Part shown: positions 2,164-20,108 of the stretch, piece after piece
Layout of the letters: the number at the start of each line of letters is the position of its first letter
How positions within the stretch are numbered: the stretch's first letter is position 1
Virus record (IMG/VR): IMGVR_UViG_3300027898_000036
Coordinates: 1-24,956 of that record
Length of the DNA: 24,956 nt
From: a virus
Reading direction: 5' to 3' (one strand)
Made by a program: the position numbers and the translations under genes
Notes under the pieces: model-generated
Database searches by the model: none
Told to the model about the DNA's origin: nothing
What the model saw: the letters and a program-made list of their open reading frames with translations, nothing else

Positions 2164-3658
2164 ACTTTCCAGGGCAGCCGATCCTTCCGAAAGAGTCCTT
2201 TAGCTTGATCCGATCCTTTCGCTCGGTCACTGGTGAGCCCGGACGCTCACGGTGGCCGAGCTTTTCTACGATCAGGTCGGTCGCTTTCCCTATCGGTTCG
2301 ATCGCCGTGCTCCTCGAGACCCTTCCGCCGTACCTCATGGCACACTCGAAAGCGAGGGCCCGCGCGATGACGATGTCGTCATGTTTCCCCGGAGGAGCGT
2401 TCATGGTGATCTTTCCTCCCGGCGTTTTCTCGTATTGGTAGGACGACAGCTCTCCCATTCCGACCGCTCCGATCGCAAACCCGTCCGAGTTCTCGTAGTC
2501 TTTCCCGACAAACCGGACGTCTTGGTTGGCGATCGCGATCGCGAGTTGGTTGATGAGGTTGACCTTCCGGAGGTTGTTGAAGATGAACGGGTCGAGCGGT
2601 TGGTCGGTGATCGACTCCTCGAGCGCTCTGAAAGACCGGTCTCCAACCCCGGTCGAGTCGACCAAGACGGGAGCTCCCCTAAACCTCTTGCACCGGGACG
2701 CGATCCAATCCTCGATGAGGATCCAGTCCATCGAGTTGATCCGGTCGAGAAAGACCTCGTCGCCGGTGTAGGCGTCGATGACAGAAACGACGGTGAAGTC
2801 CTGGTGTCGGCCGAGGTCGACACCGATGCAAAATTGGGATCCGCTCGCGCGAAGCCGCTCGGCCTCCTCGTTGTCGATCACCGAGACCTCACGGTAACCG
2901 CGGAAGATCGCGCCGACGGCGTCGAGGAACTCGGCGTAGATCTCCTGAGTGAGAAGGTGTTCGGGATAACCTTTGACGAGGTCGGCCATCTCCGCCGCGG
3001 TGATCAAGGGATTGCTTGAGGTCGGCATTTGCCACGAGGCGTATCCGGGTTCCTTTTGGACTCCAAGGTCATAGAAGTCTTTGACCCAGTTGTCGCCTCG
3101 AGGAGTGGTCGTGATGACGAAACTCCCCTCGTGGTCGATCAGGACGGGCCGGATATATTGGTAGTAGATCTCCCCGTTCGGCTCCGTCGCTCCCTCGTCA
3201 AAGCCGACTTGATCCAATCCTCGACCTAGGAGAGATCTAGGTTTGTGGCTCGATTTACCGAAAATCGCTCCGCCTGACCGGAACGCGACGACTTGACGTC
3301 CGGATCCCATCCTTGGCTCACCGGCGAGCAGGGATCCCATCGCGTTCCCTGTGACGAGGTTGACGCACTCCTCGAAGACGACGGAGCCGAGCTCGTAGTT
3401 AGGGCCGAGGCACCAAGACCAACCGCCAAGGGCCGCGCAAACGACGTGCTCGGCCGCCATCGCCTTGCTCTTTCCCCAACGACGGCCACAAATGAGAGAC
3501 TTGAACCTAGCCCGCGACGTGTGGAACTCCATTTGTCCCGCGTGAGGACGGTAGCCCATGACCTCGAATAGCTTGAGCTTTTCCTCGATTGTGATCGATT
3601 GCATTAGCCCCTGGTAAAACGGCCGTTTGACCGACGCGAGCTCCTTCGACCTGAGCAT
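2153..3658 (-). CDS. terL: Terminase large subunit
   Basis: This is the DNA-packaging motor ATPase and genome-cleaving nuclease; it docks on the portal and pumps DNA into the prohead. The 501-residue length is normal. The ATPase domain has a Walker A-like CGRRWGKS (residues 57-64), a Walker B ending in F-D-E (153-155) and a coupling motif TTTPRG (183-188). The RNase H-fold nuclease domain has acidic residues in GVDLG (D281), LVDSTG (D334) and GKHDD (D427/D428). The ATG directly abuts the TAA of the upstream tail-hub-like gene; an alternative start is M19. It is the last gene of the leftward operon and converges on the methyltransferase, with an 11-base overlap of the 3' ends. No small terminase or portal lies beside it, which is unusual because terL normally heads the head-gene module. 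Confidence 0.95.
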   Translation of the reverse strand: MLRSKELASVKRPFYQGLMQSITIEEKLKLFEVMGYRPHAGQMEFHTSRARFKSLICGRRWGKSKAMAAEHVVCAALGGWSWCLGPNYELGSVVFEECVNLVTGNAMGSLLAGEPRMGSGRQVVAFRSGGAIFGKSSHKPRSLLGRGLDQVGFDEGATEPNGEIYYQYIRPVLIDHEGSFVITTTPRGDNWVKDFYDLGVQKEPGYASWQMPTSSNPLITAAEMADLVKGYPEHLLTQEIYAEFLDAVGAIFRGYREVSVIDNEEAERLRASGSQFCIGVDLGRHQDFTVVSVIDAYTGDEVFLDRINSMDWILIEDWIASRCKRFRGAPVLVDSTGVGDRSFRALEESITDQPLDPFIFNNLRKVNLINQLAIAIANQDVRFVGKDYENSDGFAIGAVGMGELSSYQYEKTPGGKITMNAPPGKHDDIVIARALAFECAMRYGGRVSRSTAIEPIGKATDLIVEKLGHRERPGSPVTERKDRIKLKDSFGRIGCPGKFRR

Positions 3659-5962
3659 TTAGAACCCGATAAACCGACCGGTCAACTCCGTCCAAGCGTG
3701 AGACTTGGTCACGTGATGCTCGACCGACATGACGACCAAGCGGGTCGACGTGTCGAGGCCCAACCGCGGGGAATAGACGGTGATCGCATCGAGAGGGAAA
3801 ATGTCCGGTTGGATCCAATTTGTTTTGATCGGGACGTCGAGCCCGGGAACCCGGAGTACTGCGTACATTTGTTGGGCCGCTTGCTGAGCGAAAGAGGGAC
3901 TCGCGAACTGGGAGTCCATCCAAACCGCTTGCTGTTGGTAGCCCAAAAAGTTGAAGGCGTTGACGTTATAGACCGAGTCGAGGTCGTCGTATTTGAAGAC
4001 GATAGGTTCAGACTTAGGCGAGTAGGCGTTGACCCCGATGACCGCGGACGTATTCCGGACTTGTTGGAGATCCTTGGTCATTTGCATAATCTCGCATCCG
4101 TTGAGGTCGGTTCCGGATCCTACGACACCGGCGACGTCTGACTCCCAAAAAGTCCTCTTAATGGTCGTCGGGGTCATGAACTTCTGGAACCGTAGGCTCC
4201 CGTTGATGTCGACCGCGATGAAGTAACCGATCGAAAAAGCGATCTTCGCGAGGATTTGAAGGGGTGAGACTCCCGTGTTGCGTGTGAGCACGGATCCGGC
4301 GTCTCCGACCGGGAGATAGTACGCATGAGGCGACTCCGGACTCCCGAGGTCGGTTCCTAGCCCGAACGGAGCGTCCGGGACGAAGGAGGAGAAGTACATG
4401 TCCGCGATGTCGAAGTGGCCAAGCGAAGCGAGGTAGGCGGCCGCGTAGAACACGTTCCAACCGTCCATCCACGGGAGCGCGTAGCGAGGGTTTTGCATTT
4501 GGATGAAGCGGTCGCGGAGGCCCATCTTGAACATCGAGCCGTTCGTGGTCGCGATCACTTCGCCGGTCGTGTGGCCATATCCTGAGAACGCTTGTTGAAA
4601 AGCGACCAGGCCGCCGGGGATAGACCGGCCAAGCGTGACGAGGGCCGCGTTTTGGCCTGAGTTGACCGACCAATTCCCCCAATAGCCGAGGGCTCCGGTC
4701 GGGAGTATCCTTTGCCGGTTGTTGTTGAAAAGCAAGGATCCGGACGTCGTCACGATGAGCTCGTCGGGATTGAACTCCCAACGGAGATGAACCTCCTCCG
4801 GAGAGACCGCGACCGGTAGGTTGGTGTTCCTCATCGTCACCGCTTGCCAAACGAGGTCGACCGCTCTAAGGCAGACGCATTGATCAGCGAAAGGAGTCGA
4901 CCGATAGGTTCCGTTGGTCGGCCCCGTGAGGTCAAGATGGTAGTAGCAGACGGGCCCCGAAAGGCTCGAGGTACTCGGGTTGATCGTCGCGCTCCATCCC
5001 GTAGGAACCGCTCCGGCCGTGGTGAAGGAGTAGCTCCCGAGTCCGGCCGGGTAAGTGTCCCCGATCGTGAACTCAGGCGAGTCGTAAGAGCACGAGACGT
5101 TCCACTTGGTCGGATGAGCCGAAAACGAAAGCGCGATGAACCGGAACGCGCGAACCTCGAGGGAGTTGATCAAGGTGATCGGGGCTCCGGTGTTGTCGAC
5201 CCGGTTCTCCTCGAACACATAGGGGACATCGTTGTTCCCGACCCATATTTGGAGGCGTCCGGCAAGGAGGCGGAACTCGAGGTAGTTCATCGGGTTCTTT
5301 GGCGCATGGCCGACGACCCCGCTCGTGTCGTACTGGTCGTCCGCTTGCCCGAAACTAGCGTTTGTGTCCCCTTGGTCGCGGAAACTTTCGAGGTCTTTCC
5401 AGGTCGTCCCGTTGTCGGTCGACCTCGAGATCACGACCGAGCCGCCTCCGTCATAGTGGAGCGAGTAGAGGACGACGTTCGACCCTGTCCCGATCCCGAC
5501 GCGGAACGTCGTGTACTTGACATAGTCGCCGTCTGAGACGTCGCGGTCTTGCTGGTCCAGGCGAGACCAAAGGAACGTCACTCCTTGAGCCGAGATAGTC
5601 GCGGTCGCGTCGAGATAGTACGACTCGGCCGTCGACGGCGAAAGTTGGAGGTCGAACTCGGTGAAGTTGTGGGGAGTGTTCTGCCTGAAAGTGAAAGGCA
5701 CCGTCCCGACGTTGGCCCATTTGACATTAGGGGACGAGTCGCTCCCGAGCCCGTAGCCTACGGCCTGGTCGTGATAGACCATGACCGGCTTAGGGTAGAT
5801 CGCTTGAAGGTTGTAGTCGGCAATAAAGTCGACGTTGGATCCCCACACGGCGGCCGTGTTGTTCCAAGGGAAGTCGGAGTACTCGAACCGCGGGAGCTTG
5901 ACGTAAGTCCACCGTGATTGAGGGTCTTGGAGTTGAACTTGAGCGTAATCTTGGATCCTCAT
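3659..5962 (-). CDS. Large tail protein, tail-hub / baseplate-like
   Basis: This 767-residue protein is probably a distal tail component. The ATG at 5962 has GGAGG six bases upstream and shares ATGA with the upstream glycosyltransferase stop. The N-terminal two-thirds is beta-rich, with many Trp, Tyr, Asn and Gly residues. It includes a stretch with LQIWVGNNDVPYVFEENR typical of a carbohydrate-binding or concanavalin-like sandwich. The C-terminal third (from about residue 550) resembles hub proteins of the gp27/Tal type: SPLQILAKIAFSIGYFIAVD, then a beta-rich domain with late elements AITVYSPRLGL and AWTELTGRFIGF. Assignment rests on this pattern and on its place between tail and packaging genes. 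It could bind receptors through the inserted beta domain. A structure-based search would settle which hub family it belongs to. Confidence 0.55.
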   Translation of the reverse strand: MRIQDYAQVQLQDPQSRWTYVKLPRFEYSDFPWNNTAAVWGSNVDFIADYNLQAIYPKPVMVYHDQAVGYGLGSDSSPNVKWANVGTVPFTFRQNTPHNFTEFDLQLSPSTAESYYLDATATISAQGVTFLWSRLDQQDRDVSDGDYVKYTTFRVGIGTGSNVVLYSLHYDGGGSVVISRSTDNGTTWKDLESFRDQGDTNASFGQADDQYDTSGVVGHAPKNPMNYLEFRLLAGRLQIWVGNNDVPYVFEENRVDNTGAPITLINSLEVRAFRFIALSFSAHPTKWNVSCSYDSPEFTIGDTYPAGLGSYSFTTAGAVPTGWSATINPSTSSLSGPVCYYHLDLTGPTNGTYRSTPFADQCVCLRAVDLVWQAVTMRNTNLPVAVSPEEVHLRWEFNPDELIVTTSGSLLFNNNRQRILPTGALGYWGNWSVNSGQNAALVTLGRSIPGGLVAFQQAFSGYGHTTGEVIATTNGSMFKMGLRDRFIQMQNPRYALPWMDGWNVFYAAAYLASLGHFDIADMYFSSFVPDAPFGLGTDLGSPESPHAYYLPVGDAGSVLTRNTGVSPLQILAKIAFSIGYFIAVDINGSLRFQKFMTPTTIKRTFWESDVAGVVGSGTDLNGCEIMQMTKDLQQVRNTSAVIGVNAYSPKSEPIVFKYDDLDSVYNVNAFNFLGYQQQAVWMDSQFASPSFAQQAAQQMYAVLRVPGLDVPIKTNWIQPDIFPLDAITVYSPRLGLDTSTRLVVMSVEHHVTKSHAWTELTGRFIGF

Positions 5963-8103
5963 CGCGAACCTCCATGGAAAGGACGTCCGGGCGTTTTCGG
6001 AGCCTCAAAATGGCCGACATGCCTCGACCCGGAGGTTTTGACCGCGACCGGGGTCGGACACTCGACCACGCGAGCTCCGAAGTCCTTCATCCGTTGGAGG
6101 AGCTCGCGCTCCTCGGCGATATGGAGGCCTTCGTCAAACCCATGGACTCGAGTGAAAAAATCGACCCTCACAAAGACCCCGCTCGTGAAAGCGCCGTCGG
6201 TGAAACAAAGGCCGCCGTCTCCCGCATGGGTGAAAAGAGGGCAGACCACGGCGTCAGCCTGGCCGAAGTATTTGGAGACGGCCTCGACCGCTCCGGGGAG
6301 CGGGATGTCGTCGTCATCGATGAACCACACCCATTCCGTGAGGGATTGGTCTACTCCCCGGTTCCGAGCGAAACTCGCACCGCTCGGTTTCTCGATGACG
6401 ACCGCCCCGACCCCTTCCCTCGCTTGGCTGAGCTCGAGGACGTAACCGGCGCTTTTGCGGCCGTCGGCGACAAGGACGACCGGAACGTCGTCCGGGAGGT
6501 TAGACATGAGAGTACGGGCCTCGAGAGGCCTCTCGCGGGTCGGTATGACGACGGTGAGGGCTCCGTCTTTCCCTGGTGACGCGAGGATCCTGCCTCCCCA
6601 GTGTTCAGGGACGTCCCCAAAATTGGCCCAAGGAATAAGTCGGGAAGAATGGTGGGCGTCTCCGTCGGACCGCTTCGACCAATAGGTTCGGGCCGTGGTC
6701 GAATAGAGGTGTTCGACCGTTCCATTTAACCCGGCTAAAATCCGGAAGTATTTCCAGTCCTCGGCCGCGAGGCGATGATCGTCCTCGACGGGGAACTCGG
6801 TCGACCTCGCGACGTCTCCCCAAACGACGACGGCCGACGTCTTGATGAAATTCTCTCTCTCGAGGCGGTCACGGTCAAACGTAAGGTCTCCGCGGAGTTG
6901 AGCCTCGGGATGTTCGTCGGGCCGGTACCTGAAACGTCCGGTCTCGGGATCTTTCCATCTCCACGCGAACGACGTCCTCGAGTAGCTCATGAGAAGGCCG
7001 GGACGCGACTCGTGAAATGCGACATGCTTGGCGAGATGGTCAGGGTTCCAAGTGTCGTCGGAGTCGAGGAAAGCGACGTACTTCCCGCGTGAGAGGGAGA
7101 CCCCGTAGTTTCGCGCGGCCGCGGGCCCGCGGTTGTCCGCGAGGTTGAAGTACCAGATACGATCCTGGTAGTCAAAGAACCGGTTGGTAGCCGCTTGGCG
7201 GATCGCCTCCCAATCTCCGGATCCGTCGTCAACGACATAGAGCCGCCAATCCTGGAAAGACTGACGGACGACCGAGTCGATCGCTTCGAAAAGGAGGTCG
7301 GAACGGTTATAGGTCGGGATGACGACGGAGACCGTCTCGGGTTTCCCTTCTCGTTTCTCAGTGAGGAGGAACCTGCCCCGGCACCACTCTTCAAACCGCC
7401 TCGGCATCTCTTTGACCGTCTGGTGCTCGAGGTGGTGGACATAGGCGTCCCTGACTTGAAAGAGCTTGGTGTACCGAGCGGCCCGAGCGAAAAGGTCGTA
7501 GTCTTCGCCGAAGATCCGGTAATCCTGGTCGAAGCCTCCGAGCCGATCCCATAACCGCCGATCTATGAGGAAACAATATCCGCCTTGAGGGACGTAGGGA
7601 TCCGAAACGGGGAGGATCCCGGAGAACTGAACCGACGCGATCCTCCACCACTTGCAAACTTTCTCATAGTTGGCATAGATGTCCTCGACCCGAGAGGGAT
7701 CTCCAAGGGCCGGAGGAGAGACACCCAGCGAACCGACGCAACGGCTCGAGAGAGGGATCACCAACCCGCATTGATCTGAAAGGGACTCCCTGAGCCTCGA
7801 GAGGGATCCGGGAGAGAAAACGACGTCGTTATTGACCACGAGGAGCGCGTCATAGTTTCCGGGATGGCTCACCCCAATGTTGACCGACTTGCAATAGTTC
7901 CCGCGGTCTGAGTTGACGATCATCCTCGTTTTGGCTTTCGGGTTGTCGATGTCGGCCCGGATCGCCCCAAGCGTCTCGGGTTCGGAGCCGTTGTCGACCA
8001 AGACGATAGAATCCCCGTCCTTCATCTCCGCGCGGAGCGACATCAAAGTTTGAGTTAAGAGAAAAGGTTTGTCGAGTGTTGGGATGACGATCCTGATATT
8101 CAT
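5959..8103 (-). CDS. Triple-domain GT2 glycosyltransferase
   Basis: This is a protein of about 714 residues with three consecutive family 2 (GT-A fold) glycosyltransferase domains. Domain 1 starts MNIRIVIPTLDKP, has VDNGS and carries NND where a DxD metal-binding motif would be. Domain 2 (from about residue 257) has VSVVIPTYNRS, VVDDGSGD and DSDD. Domain 3 (from about residue 515) has LTVVIPTRERP and DDDD. Such enzymes transfer sugars from nucleotide-sugar donors. I chose the ATG at 8103 over one at 8130 because GGAGAG lies just before it, it overlaps the radical SAM stop as TAATG, and the first domain begins there. It also overlaps the tail-hub-like gene by ATGA. Three different acidic motifs suggest stepwise addition of different sugars, with domain 1 possibly altered. 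Targets could be virion proteins or a host surface glycan. Confidence 0.85.
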   Translation of the reverse strand: MNIRIVIPTLDKPFLLTQTLMSLRAEMKDGDSIVLVDNGSEPETLGAIRADIDNPKAKTRMIVNSDRGNYCKSVNIGVSHPGNYDALLVVNNDVVFSPGSLSRLRESLSDQCGLVIPLSSRCVGSLGVSPPALGDPSRVEDIYANYEKVCKWWRIASVQFSGILPVSDPYVPQGGYCFLIDRRLWDRLGGFDQDYRIFGEDYDLFARAARYTKLFQVRDAYVHHLEHQTVKEMPRRFEEWCRGRFLLTEKREGKPETVSVVIPTYNRSDLLFEAIDSVVRQSFQDWRLYVVDDGSGDWEAIRQAATNRFFDYQDRIWYFNLADNRGPAAARNYGVSLSRGKYVAFLDSDDTWNPDHLAKHVAFHESRPGLLMSYSRTSFAWRWKDPETGRFRYRPDEHPEAQLRGDLTFDRDRLERENFIKTSAVVVWGDVARSTEFPVEDDHRLAAEDWKYFRILAGLNGTVEHLYSTTARTYWSKRSDGDAHHSSRLIPWANFGDVPEHWGGRILASPGKDGALTVVIPTRERPLEARTLMSNLPDDVPVVLVADGRKSAGYVLELSQAREGVGAVVIEKPSGASFARNRGVDQSLTEWVWFIDDDDIPLPGAVEAVSKYFGQADAVVCPLFTHAGDGGLCFTDGAFTSGVFVRVDFFTRVHGFDEGLHIAEERELLQRMKDFGARVVECPTPVAVKTSGSRHVGHFEAPKTPGRPFHGGSR

Positions 8104-9860
8104 TAGTCTCTCCGTGGACATGCGCGACAATTCGAATTGTCTCCGCTCTTTACATAGTAAAAATTAGCGAGGAAAAGCTGATAGCTAGCGTTGTCGTCAA
8201 CGATTTTGGCCCATGGGTCGACGTTGAAGTCTCCGATCTTGAGCCGCGCGAGGCAAGACCAGGCCGTACCGTCGTAATCGACATACATCTCTTTGGGGAC
8301 TTCTTTGAACTCGGGAGGCTCGTCCGAGACGTCGGGAGGAGGAGGCACCCTTTTTGCCGAGTACCCGATCACGTCGACCTCCCCTACCACGAACGCGACG
8401 TCGACAAGTGCGGCCACAAGTTGAGTTACGAAAACATTGTCGGTGACCGTGGTCGTTATCCCGAGCGCGGTCGTGACGAAAACATTAGTTATGTAATTAA
8501 GCTGTGTGCCGTTGTATTGTTCAACCGCGAATTGCACTTCGTTTACTTTATAGAGGATGTCGTTCCCGTGAGTGTAGTTTGGTACTGTGAGTTGAGGAGG
8601 GTAGTTAAAAGTCGTGTTGGTCTGGTTTTGCTGGATCGTGGTGATCCCTACCAGGGTCGTCGTATAACCTAAAGTGTTTACTCCCGTTGCGGTGTAGGTC
8701 GTGGTGTGGTCTAACGCGGTCGTCGCCGTCGTGCTTGCCACGCTTCCGGGAGGGTTGGAAAGTGCAAACCCCGCGACGGCCGTACCGTTCAATATCCCAC
8801 CGTAGTTTGTGGTCGTCGGGAAGTAAGTTGCGGGTGTCGTCGTGAAGGTCTGATAAACCGTCGTCGTCCCGCCGGGGACGGTCAAGTAAGGAGGGTTCGT
8901 GACCGTGGTCTCGGCCGTGACAACCCAGTCCCAAAATGCTCTCGCCGCGGTGATCGATGTCAAATGAGGCCCCGTAGTCCCCGTGGTTCCCCTCGGAGAC
9001 GTCCCTCCGCATGGAGACAGTCCGTAGAACATGATGTCGGCCCATCTCCGGATCTTTCGCGGGTCGGTGTTGTCGATGATCGCGTTCGGGTTGGCCGTCG
9101 AGAATTCCGGCATTTGAACGACGAGGTTGAGCCCGGCGGCATCGGCCGCGATCCTCGCCTTCGCAACGTTCTCGAGAGTCTTGTCACGGAGGAACCGGAG
9201 CGACTCCTCGACCCGGTCGGTGACGTGGTGGTCGGCCGGAACCATGAGGAGTTGTTCCCCATGCTCCTTCCGTCCGATCCCGAGCTCGGCGCAAAGTTCA
9301 ACCCACGGAGCGAGCTCCTCGATGTTGCTCGCCATCGCGGTGAACTGAGAGTCGACTTTGGATCCAGGTTTGGCGGCCTTGAAAGCTTTGACGGACTTGA
9401 CCAAGTGAGCGAGGTTCCCCTTTCTCATCCTTGAGTAGCCTTCGGGAGTACCGGCATCGATCGACACCGAGACATGAGGGGATTCTCCGACTGATTCGAG
9501 AACTCGAGGGAGGTCGAGGTAGTGTCCGTTGGTAAAGAAAAAGAGGCTTTTCCCGGCCTCTATGACGTCTTTCGCGGCTTGGCAGAACATAGCGCCAAGG
9601 GTTGGCTCACCTAGACCGCCTAGCTCGACGTGGTCGACGTGAGGAAAGACTTTCTCTTTGACATGAGCCCAAGTTTCAGGGCTCATGTCATCAGCGACCG
9701 GGAGCTCGTCGCGGCCGTCCGTGAAAACGACCGTCCCTCGCTTTTTCCGGCCTTCGTTTCCGCCCCCGGCTAGTGCTTCCCTTTCGCAGAAGAAACAACC
9801 TAGGTTGCATCCCGCGGCGATCCGGACATGCACCGACCGGGGACGGAAAACGTACCTCAT
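8103..9860 (-). CDS. Radical SAM protein with SPASM-like C-terminus and Thr-rich insertion
   Basis: This 585-residue enzyme would use a [4Fe-4S] cluster and S-adenosylmethionine for radical chemistry. The cluster motif CNLGCFFC is at C18, C22 and C25, and GGLGEP (81-86) is the GGE-type SAM-binding element. C-terminal cysteines C284, C536, C578 and C581, with YVDYDGTAWSC around 526-536, look like a SPASM/twitch auxiliary-cluster region. Between C284 and K520 lies an unusual block (about residues 285-503, bases 8352-9008) rich in Thr, Val, Asn and Tyr, with TTT runs and a repeated P-P-x-L-T-V-P motif; it is more AT-rich than its surroundings. The start overlaps the upstream stop as TGATG and the stop overlaps the glycosyltransferase start as TAATG. 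SPASM relatives modify peptides or sugars. With the adjacent glycosyltransferase, a role in virion or surface modification is inferred, not shown. Confidence 0.85.
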   Translation of the reverse strand: MRYVFRPRSVHVRIAAGCNLGCFFCEREALAGGGNEGRKKRGTVVFTDGRDELPVADDMSPETWAHVKEKVFPHVDHVELGGLGEPTLGAMFCQAAKDVIEAGKSLFFFTNGHYLDLPRVLESVGESPHVSVSIDAGTPEGYSRMRKGNLAHLVKSVKAFKAAKPGSKVDSQFTAMASNIEELAPWVELCAELGIGRKEHGEQLLMVPADHHVTDRVEESLRFLRDKTLENVAKARIAADAAGLNLVVQMPEFSTANPNAIIDNTDPRKIRRWADIMFYGLSPCGGTSPRGTTGTTGPHLTSITAARAFWDWVVTAETTVTNPPYLTVPGGTTTVYQTFTTTPATYFPTTTNYGGILNGTAVAGFALSNPPGSVASTTATTALDHTTTYTATGVNTLGYTTTLVGITTIQQNQTNTTFNYPPQLTVPNYTHGNDILYKVNEVQFAVEQYNGTQLNYITNVFVTTALGITTTVTDNVFVTQLVAALVDVAFVVGEVDVIGYSAKRVPPPPDVSDEPPEFKEVPKEMYVDYDGTAWSCLARLKIGDFNVDPWAKIVDDNASYQLFLANFYYVKSGDNSNCRACPRRD

Positions 9861-17859: not shown

Positions 17860-18656
17860 GAGATGACCGTCCTCCCGACCGGCGTGGTCGAACCGATGGT
17901 GAAGTTGGCGAGGGTTCCACCGGCGACGGTGATCCCGGAGACCGCGGCGATCAGCGAACCGGCCGTCGCGGGGTTTCCTCCTCCCGGAGCCAAAGTGTAA
18001 GTCCCGGCCGCCGCAAAGGTAGCCGTCCAAGTCTTCCCGGTGACGAAAGTTCCCGAGACAGGATCCGCCGCGGTTCCCGTGACCGTCACCGTCTGAGGAG
18101 TGACTCCGCTCGCTGAGACGACGATGGTCGGGATCCCTCCGGCGTAGTTTGCCTGGTTGACGGGAGTTCCGGCGACGTACCCTCCCGCGGTCGTGTAGGA
18201 CGCGAGGTTGGGTTGGACGTAGTAGTAGTTAAGCGGGTTAGGGTTCGCTCCAAGGTAGTTTTGGATCAACTGGATTCCCGGGTGTTGGAGCGCCGTGAAG
18301 TAGGATCCTCCGACGACCCCGGCCCCGATGTTGAGCCACGTGAGGTAAGTCTCGAGGTTCGAGTATCCCGAGCCGCCTTGAGCGATGAGCCCGTTGATCA
18401 CGTATTGGAGTTGAGCGAACCAATTCGAGAAAAGGCTCGTGAAAACTTGCTGGTTCCCGACTCCGCTTTGAATGTAGAGGCTAGCGCTCCCAAGCGTCGA
18501 CGCGGTGTTCAAACTCGAGAGTCCGGAAAGGTTGGCGGTCACGAGAGCGGTAGCGCCGGTGTTGCGGTCGGCGAGCCCCTCCTCATATCCCCAAGCGATT
18601 TTCGCGATCCCGTCGAGGAGTGAGTTGAGTTCAGAAACGAGGAGGGCGTAAGCCAT
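17850..18656 (-). CDS. Structural protein with Ig-like C-terminus, hypothetical
   Basis: This 268-residue protein has a largely helical first 130 residues (ELNSLLDGIAKIAWGYEEG, FSNWFAQLQYVINGLIAQGG). It then has a beta-rich Thr/Val/Gly section (IPTIVVSASGVTPQTVTVTG and following) that looks like one Ig-like or carbohydrate-binding domain. It lies between a connector candidate and the gpG-like protein. I do not recognise the helical part; a head completion or neck protein is plausible from position. The start is a TAATG overlap with the preceding gene. Confidence 0.6.
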   Translation of the reverse strand: MAYALLVSELNSLLDGIAKIAWGYEEGLADRNTGATALVTANLSGLSSLNTASTLGSASLYIQSGVGNQQVFTSLFSNWFAQLQYVINGLIAQGGSGYSNLETYLTWLNIGAGVVGGSYFTALQHPGIQLIQNYLGANPNPLNYYYVQPNLASYTTAGGYVAGTPVNQANYAGGIPTIVVSASGVTPQTVTVTGTAADPVSGTFVTGKTWTATFAAAGTYTLAPGGGNPATAGSLIAAVSGITVAGGTLANFTIGSTTPVGRTVISWQ

Positions 18657-19099
18657 TAGTATTCACCACCATAGCGGAACCGTCGTCCGCGGGTCGTCAT
18701 CGGCCGGAACGTGCGAGCGTGGTTCCCGGCCCGGACAGGGTTGAGCATTTGAAGGCCGGGGATCTCGATGCGTCCGGCGAGGATGTCGGCTAGCCCGTCT
18801 TTCGCCGACTTGATCAGAGAATTCGCGTAAGACGGCCAAGTTCCCGGCTCCGGGGAGCTCGCGGCATATTTGGACTGTTCGATGTACCCCGCGGTGAGCT
18901 CGTTCGCGATCGATACGATCTCGTCCGGTGGAGTGACCGTGTTTCCGTTTTCGTCAACGGGAAAGTAGAAATTCTCTCCGAGGCGGCCGTTTATGAACCG
19001 GTCGGCGCGGGCGGCATGAACCGTATAGACGTCCGGGCTGATCCCGCCTTTGACGTTGACGCAAAGGGCGGTCACTGACGATAGATCGGAATAAGCCAT
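18656..19099 (-). CDS. Head-tail connector-like protein
   Basis: This is a 147-residue protein, the first gene after the major capsid protein. It starts MAYSDLSSVTALC and is mostly helical with an aromatic hinge (INGRLGENFYFPVD), a helix (VSIANELTAGYIEQSKYAAS) and a basic C-terminal tail (TFRPMTTRGRRFRYGG). Size, position and layout resemble the gp36/gp6-type connector proteins (DUF1320-like) that form the ring below the portal. No obvious SD precedes its ATG. Instead the leader contains two stacked inverted repeats including the 34-bp palindrome, so translation may depend on structure or coupling. It ends in TAATG with the next gene. Confidence 0.6.
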   Translation of the reverse strand: MAYSDLSSVTALCVNVKGGISPDVYTVHAARADRFINGRLGENFYFPVDENGNTVTPPDEIVSIANELTAGYIEQSKYAASSPEPGTWPSYANSLIKSAKDGLADILAGRIEIPGLQMLNPVRAGNHARTFRPMTTRGRRFRYGGEY

Positions 19100-19101
19100 G
19101 A

Positions 19102-19119
19102 GTCGAAAGTGTTTTCGAC
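19102..19119. repeat. Inverted repeat in the leader of the connector gene
   Basis: Perfect 7-base arms GTCGAAA (19102-19108) and TTTCGAC (19113-19119) surround a GTGT loop. It sits two bases upstream of the connector ATG on the leftward strand and overlaps the 34-bp palindrome by three bases, so the two RNA hairpins could not both form completely. It may expose or hide the connector start. There is no SD between it and the ATG. Confidence 0.65.
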
Positions 19120-19150
19120 CGGGGACGTTTCACGTGAAACGTCCCCGGTC
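19117..19150. promoter_or_regulatory. 34-bp perfect palindrome with parS core
   Basis: Both 17-base halves are exact reverse complements with no spacer (centre between 19133 and 19134). The central 14 bases (19127-19140) are GTTTCACGTGAAAC, identical to the core of the bacterial chromosomal ParB-binding site parS and to the 14-mer described for Streptomyces. Flanks are C and G instead of T and A of the 16-base Bacillus site. It lies in the 64-base gap between the major capsid and connector genes. As RNA it would form a very stable hairpin of about 15 base pairs and an ACGU loop, with no U run on either strand. It may bind host ParB, act as an mRNA stabiliser or attenuator after the capsid gene, or both. 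Confidence 0.75.
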
Positions 19151-19163
19151 TCTAGTCTTGGCC

Positions 19164-20108
19164 TTAGTAGTTGAGGGTCGCGAGGCTAGCGCACTCGGCG
19201 GCGATCAGCTTAGGCGTAGTGAATCGGCCGTACTCGATCTTCCACGATCGGATGTCGGGCTCATACCACTTGCTGACGTACTCCTCTGTCCAGAGTCGCA
19301 CGGCCCAAGTGAGCATGTTCCTTCCCAGTCCGCCGGGAGCGATGTAGGCGACGATGAAGTTCTTGCCCGCGACACGGGCGAGAGACCTCGGTTGTCCCTT
19401 GTTGGCCGAGTTGAGGAGAGCCTTGACCGGGACGACGTCCATTCCGTAGAACTTCTGAGGGAGATCCTCGACGTCGTTCGCTGTCCCCTGCAAAGGAGAC
19501 TGGTAGTACTCTTCTTTTCTGAACTCCTCAGTCCGCATGATCGCACGGAACGAAGCCGGAGCCCCGATGATCGTGTTAGGCGTCCTTCCGGATGCGACCT
19601 CGACGTCTTCCTTCATCGCGTCGATGAGGGCTCGAGGTGATCCGGTCGAGGCGTTCGACAAGTCGCACAAGGCGGAACCGTTTCCGCCGTATGCCCTTGA
19701 GTTGATGAAGTTTGCGGTGTTGGTCGCAAACCCACCAGACCCAAAGATCAAGTTTTCGTAGTTGTTCAAGACTTGCTGTTTCACTGTTTCGGTCTTGACC
19801 ATCTCGATGTCGAGGACATCGTCGGCGTTTCGCAGGTCTGACTCCGTGATCAGGGCGTGGAGCGAGTGCTCGACACACTGATACGAGGTCAGCTTGAACC
19901 CGGCGTCGGTCTGCCTTGATGGGGCTCCGTTCGCGCGGGTGTCGTCCATGAGGTCAAAGAGGACTCGATCCCAGATAGGAAACTCGTCGCTGAGGTGCTG
20001 GACCCGTATCGGACGTAGAACCTTGTCGGCCGCTAAGTCCGGCGGGATGTACTTGACCGAGACGTCGGTCAAGAGGGCGTTGAGGTGGAGCTGGTTAGTT
20101 CCGGGCAT
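19164..20108 (-). CDS. Major capsid protein
   Basis: This is a 314-residue capsid shell subunit of HK97 fold. The N-terminus (LLTDVSVKYIPPDLAADKVL) followed by RVQHLSDEFPIWDRV matches a capsid family common in phages. Other diagnostic parts are the long helix region (ITESDLRNADDVLDIEMVKT), the peripheral domain with VASGRTPNTIIGAPASFRAI, and late strands (FIVAYIAPGGLGRNMLTWAV, then YEPDIRSWKIEYGRF). No separate delta domain is visible. A strong SD, GGAGGT, sits eight bases before the ATG, consistent with high expression. It follows the decoration-like gene with a six-base gap and is followed by the 34-bp palindrome. Confidence 0.93.
   Translation of the reverse strand: MPGTNQLHLNALLTDVSVKYIPPDLAADKVLRPIRVQHLSDEFPIWDRVLFDLMDDTRANGAPSRQTDAGFKLTSYQCVEHSLHALITESDLRNADDVLDIEMVKTETVKQQVLNNYENLIFGSGGFATNTANFINSRAYGGNGSALCDLSNASTGSPRALIDAMKEDVEVASGRTPNTIIGAPASFRAIMRTEEFRKEEYYQSPLQGTANDVEDLPQKFYGMDVVPVKALLNSANKGQPRSLARVAGKNFIVAYIAPGGLGRNMLTWAVRLWTEEYVSKWYEPDIRSWKIEYGRFTTPKLIAAECASLATLNY

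Follow-up and report, generated by a model that had tools for sequence, protein, structure and literature searches.

In Bacteria, few pairs of a DNA site and its protein are as highly conserved as parS and ParB, and SMC loading follows this pairing. The locus described here raises the question of why an exact parS core is found on a viral contig, at the centre of a perfect palindrome directly behind a capsid gene: by chance, as part of an RNA hairpin, or as a site for a host protein. The window analyzed, that is, the whole stretch of 24,956 nucleotides from the IMG/VR record IMGVR_UViG_3300027898_000036, contains a perfect 34-bp palindrome at positions 19117-19150 (GACCGGGGACGTTTCAC|GTGAAACGTCCCCGGTC), with 17-bp arms that are 100% complementary and a loop of zero length. 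Its centre, at 19127-19140, is the chromosome-type 14-bp parS core GTTTCACGTGAAAC, an exact match to the published parS definition (PMC7383237) and to the M. smegmatis consensus (PMC7022226); the core is enclosed by two GC-rich outer arms, GACCGGGGAC (19117-19126) and GTCCCCGGTC (19141-19150), which pair with each other, and none of these features is assigned to a strand. Compared with the parS consensus tGTTtCACGTGAAACa, a palindrome of 14-16 bp, all 14 core bases are present, while the outermost pair is C-G and not T-A.

The palindrome lies in a 64-bp gap (19100-19163) that separates the capsid gene from the next late gene. Upstream in transcription order is the gene for the 314-aa major capsid protein (19164-20108, minus strand), which matches PHROG 1005, major head protein, with an E value of 9e-28 and is 23.7% identical to the capsid protein of Microbacterium phage ValentiniPuff. 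The next late gene, an open reading frame at 18656-19099 on the minus strand, is found where a head-tail connector gene would usually lie; its 147-aa product has no PHROG match and its function is unassigned by homology. Elsewhere in the window, an open reading frame at 8103-9860 codes for a 585-aa protein that, read by eye, has a radical SAM-like start (CNLGCFFCE) and a long threonine-rich stretch, and the adjoining one at 5959-8130 for a 723-aa protein that, again by eye, resembles a glycosyltransferase.

The 14-mer has no other match in the window at up to three mismatches. The contig IMGVR_UViG_3300006162_000002 (G001), of 45,276 bp, represents the same virus and contains the whole window at 99.98% identity; in this twin contig TTTCACGTGAAA is found only once at up to one mismatch, the expectation for the 14-mer being 2.1e-4 copies under a first-order Markov model. 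Perfect palindromes with a half-length of at least 17 are expected 2.4e-6 times in the window, considering base composition only, and the seven-base parS half-site has a probability of about 1 in 20,800 once a palindrome is given. The sequence-only reading of this DNA had reported the perfect palindrome, the parS core at its centre and its position after the capsid gene, all of which were confirmed; it had also put the half-site chance at 1 in 16,000, where the rarity stands and the figure is replaced by the recomputed one. The exact parS at the centre of the palindrome is not due to chance.

At the RNA level, both strands of the palindrome fold into a 15-bp stem closed by an ACGU tetraloop, with z-scores of -6.0 and -5.6. 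A second, small hairpin, GTCGAAAGTGTTTTCGAC (19102-19119, no strand assigned), was read from the sequence on the side of the palindrome that faces the start codon of the next gene, and the fold pairs four of its base pairs. The main stem is not followed by a U-tract on either strand, the next bases on the coding strand being GAAAACAC, and for this reason it is not a classical terminator; despite its stem, the palindrome does not qualify as an intrinsic (rho-independent) terminator and is absent from the listing of the terminator scan. Scans of the window against Rfam at the gathering score and for tRNA gave no match. Beyond the window, the twin contig contains at 3172-5294 perfect GC-rich hairpins between early genes, beside a promoter-like TATAAT/ACCACACTCGG repeat; one of them measures 69 nt (5226-5294), and some are accompanied on the minus strand by a short run of T and by a TATAAT stretch resembling a promoter.

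Is the core confined to this virus? In IMG/VR, the 14-mer occurs in at least 120 stretches and the 16-mer CGTTTCACGTGAAACG in at least 119, matches that may include host fragments or host DNA, redundant contigs or prophages, whereas two permuted palindromes of the same composition match 0 and 2; the resulting fold-enrichment over controls is a lower bound. In INPHARED, two parS-centred queries match 352 and 338 records, as compared to one for a scrambled core, a difference of two orders of magnitude among records that are redundant; the matches span phages of Listeria, Microbacterium, Arthrobacter, Gordonia, Bacillus and Lactobacillus, microviruses and others. In many viral places the core has no long arms. 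The bases flanking the 14-mer are most commonly T..A (94 of 148 viral sites), and the C..G of this virus is found at 3 of the 148. A set of viral DNA of 2.09 Mb contains six zero-loop palindromes with a half-length of at least 13, all centred on parS, a result that is only suggestive because five of the six were fetched by the parS core. The highest parS density encountered in this analysis is that of the inovirus bajarodino virus 3 (PQ006097, 6183 bp), with six exact copies of TTTCACGTGAAA at 706, 742, 3043, 3585, 4382 and 5923; in Vibrio phage phi 3 (NC_028895), a 16-bp parS match is located at 2934-2949, within the annotated left terminal repeat.

The combination of parS and hairpin is also found in unrelated phages, where the core again occupies the tip of a GC-rich stem. 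Gordonia phage Hail2Pitt has two intergenic parS-centred palindromes, of 34 and 30 bp, Gordonia phage Orchid has another one with different arms, and that of Tortoise microvirus 39 measures about 38 bp. In Arthrobacter phage VroomVroom parS is placed within a hairpin 3′ of a tail gene, while in Curtobacterium phages Moss and Kalimba it forms the tip of a hairpin directly 3′ of the capsid gene, before the head-tail adaptor; the Arthrobacter relatives of these Curtobacterium phages have a strong conserved post-capsid hairpin devoid of parS. Gordonia phages Bianmat (near 1505) and Newt (near 1925) retain the hairpin, but mutation has turned its parS core into CACATG (GTTTCACATGAAAC), and these stems that outlast their cores indicate that the hairpin can persist without parS.

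Searches with the capsid or the terminase as single proteins returned only near-identical copies of this virus, and no close relative with a diverged gap was found among them. A two-sequence capsid alignment search gave 80 loci including the twin contig, the remainder being 22-31% identical; 58 relatives were examined, i.e., 57 of these loci and one locus from an Acidobacteria MAG, and the post-capsid gap was readable in 56. In many of the 56, the capsid gene is followed by a strong hairpin whose sequence is unrelated. One relative, L317, contains the exact 16-mer CGTTTCACGTGAAACG in this gap with almost no outer arms, whereas L319, whose capsid is 99% identical to that of L317, has an entirely different gap lacking parS; the post-capsid position is thus reused, with parS coming and going. 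The possibility that this capsid family inherited its post-capsid parS from a common ancestor was discarded, as 55 of the 56 readable relatives are without it.

The conservation of the core against its surroundings, which the sequence-only reading had proposed to compare in related phages, could be followed in analogous phages, this virus having provided near-identical copies only. Arthrobacter phages VroomVroom, JasmineDragon and Emotion contain six, six and seven exact parS sites, respectively, scattered along their genomes. The syntenic 14-mers are identical at six and five sites, while identity in the 40-bp flanks falls to 77% and 56%; for one site of VroomVroom, Emotion offers no equivalent. 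JasmineDragon, Emotion and L317 were fetched by homology and not by parS, and the argument for selection is limited to these three, since a search with the core itself necessarily returns conserved cores; conservation among matches of that kind was dropped as a proof of selection. Enrichment over controls, a core more conserved than its flanks and the nearly armless site of L317 strongly support the earlier suggestion of a parS-type site selected at the DNA level, and selection at the sequence level is well supported for this class of sites.

Which protein would then recognize these sites? Profile searches with PF02195 (ParB_N), PF17762 (HTH_ParB) and PF13614 (ParA-type) gave no match in VroomVroom, JasmineDragon and Emotion, nor in the 45-kb contig of this virus, which may be incomplete; the claim that parA and parB are missing from the window thus extends to the twin contig, and the cognate protein would have to be that of the host. 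The three Arthrobacter phages also have no match to the integrase profiles PF07508 and PF00589 and have an annotated recombination directionality factor; they are possibly extrachromosomal prophages. As for the host, the virus is weakly linked to a phage of Acidobacteriota and to a MAG: among the genomes of a collection, a single distant relative of the capsid, 23% identical, was located in an Acidobacteria MAG, a match too weak to name the host. The 14-mer is present in 31 of 99 sampled genomes of the phylum of this MAG (reversed control, 0 of 99), the virus-host link being itself weak; the exact 14-mer was not found in the nearest MAG genome, which says little, as this MAG is not established as the host.

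The explanation that we favor, and regard as probable though far from certain, is a nested pair, in which a post-capsid RNA hairpin carries at its apex an orphan host-type parS that loads host ParB. As RNA, the stem would form a strong hairpin just 3′ of the capsid stop codon, which probably shields the 3′ end of the capsid mRNA or reduces transcription into the connector genes. As DNA, the apex should act as an orphan chromosome-type parS, and host ParB is the expected loader because the viral sequence at 45 kb matches neither ParB nor ParA. From sequence comparison we infer that ParB would bind the viral parS and, loaded as a CTP clamp, would spread along the phage DNA to the benefit of the virus; it could couple this DNA to host ParA and SMC, which could serve the positioning, partition or organization of the phage genome, and it may also affect late transcription. 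The sequence-only reading had likewise named SMC attraction, packaging and a transcriptional roadblock as roles that ParB might play here. The absence of a loop in the 34-mer would follow from parS being itself palindromic, and hence able to form the tip of the hairpin at no cost. Against this nested arrangement are the single site in this virus, its rare C..G flanks, the lack of conservation of a post-capsid parS, as in L319, and the stems of Bianmat and Newt that are retained with a mutated core.

A post-capsid hairpin acting only as RNA, in stability, processing or attenuation, with parS at its tip by coincidence, would account for the fold z-score of about -6 and agrees with the hairpins of unrelated sequence in many capsid relatives, with the conserved parS-less hairpin in the Arthrobacter relatives of the Curtobacterium phages and with the other perfect hairpins in the early region of the same virus; moreover, the site was picked out from many windows. 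However, RNA has no need of GUUUCACGUGAAAC at the tip, a sequence expected in about 1 in 20,800 palindromes, the core recurs after the capsid gene in Curtobacterium phages and almost without arms in L317, and the missing U-tract speaks against a classical terminator, all of which makes coincidence unlikely. The sequence-only reading had offered the RNA hairpin as an exclusive alternative; the hairpin itself was borne out by the capsid relatives and by the Arthrobacter relatives of the Curtobacterium phages, while the exclusiveness was lost, parS and hairpin being nested.

Two further explanations keep the DNA site and change its function. It is rather improbable that the core is an operator for another host or phage DNA-binding protein, such as a repressor or a late regulator: the site is indeed palindromic, intergenic and close to late genes, and in some Microbacterium phages it falls within genes whose annotation is that of an HTH DNA-binding protein, but the 14-mer equals the bacterial parS (PMC7383237, PMC7022226), and its occurrence in phages of very different hosts, including inoviruses and microviruses, would require one regulator common to all. 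Even less credit is given to a replication, cruciform or packaging element; perfect palindromes with zero loop can extrude as cruciforms, and a single site per genome would suit an origin or a packaging site, yet elsewhere the core is scattered in six to seven copies per genome, occurs six times in a 6-kb inovirus and is found in many places without long arms.

Since parS within a hairpin recurs in unrelated phages, phages may borrow the segregation protein of their host. We would give about even chances to the broader proposal that orphan host-type parS is a general and unreported feature of tailed phages, inoviruses and microviruses, often placed in gene-end hairpins, which would let viruses devoid of parAB load host ParB clamps, and thereby ParA and SMC, to position, segregate or organize their DNA; among open-licence articles none was found on a phage parS bound by host ParB, which does not imply that it is unpublished. 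If phages of many hosts carry an exact parS and no parAB, this could represent a mimicry of the centromere; phage biology would be linked to chromosome segregation, and prophages lacking an integrase, as may be the case for the three Arthrobacter phages without an integrase match, would have a route to persist. Culturable phages would then provide ready test systems.

T-phi of phage T7, located after gene 10, is an example of a post-capsid transcription hairpin. The stem described here resembles it in being strong and directly 3′ of the major capsid gene, but differs in having no U-tract on either side and an exact parS at its apex. The Noc-binding site NBS (TATTTCCCGGGAAATA) is bound by a protein of the same family and has equal length and symmetry, while the viral site has the parS bases at positions 1 and 6 (PMC7383237). 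The parABS systems of actinobacteriophages (Dedrick et al. 2016, as cited in PMC12704722) likewise pair a phage with a centromere-like site, but there the phage supplies its own ParA and ParB, whereas in this virus, whose contig may be incomplete, neither is detected and the site has the host-type sequence. In Bacteria, parS measures 14-16 bp (14 bp as defined in PMC7383237; M. smegmatis consensus in PMC7022226). The protein that recognizes it, ParB, closes into a clamp with CTP and then spreads (PMC12704722). The usual setting of parS is a bacterial chromosome, close to oriC and to parAB; the present site instead occurs once on a viral contig, nested in a palindrome of 34 bp behind the capsid gene, and the 45 kb of viral sequence contain neither parA nor parB. 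A single parS can suffice for chromosome segregation in Pseudomonas aeruginosa, according to PMC4368675, and the viral site, also palindromic, agrees in all 14 central bases with tGTTTCACGTGAAACa, the parS that serves the ParABS-SMC system on chromosomes.
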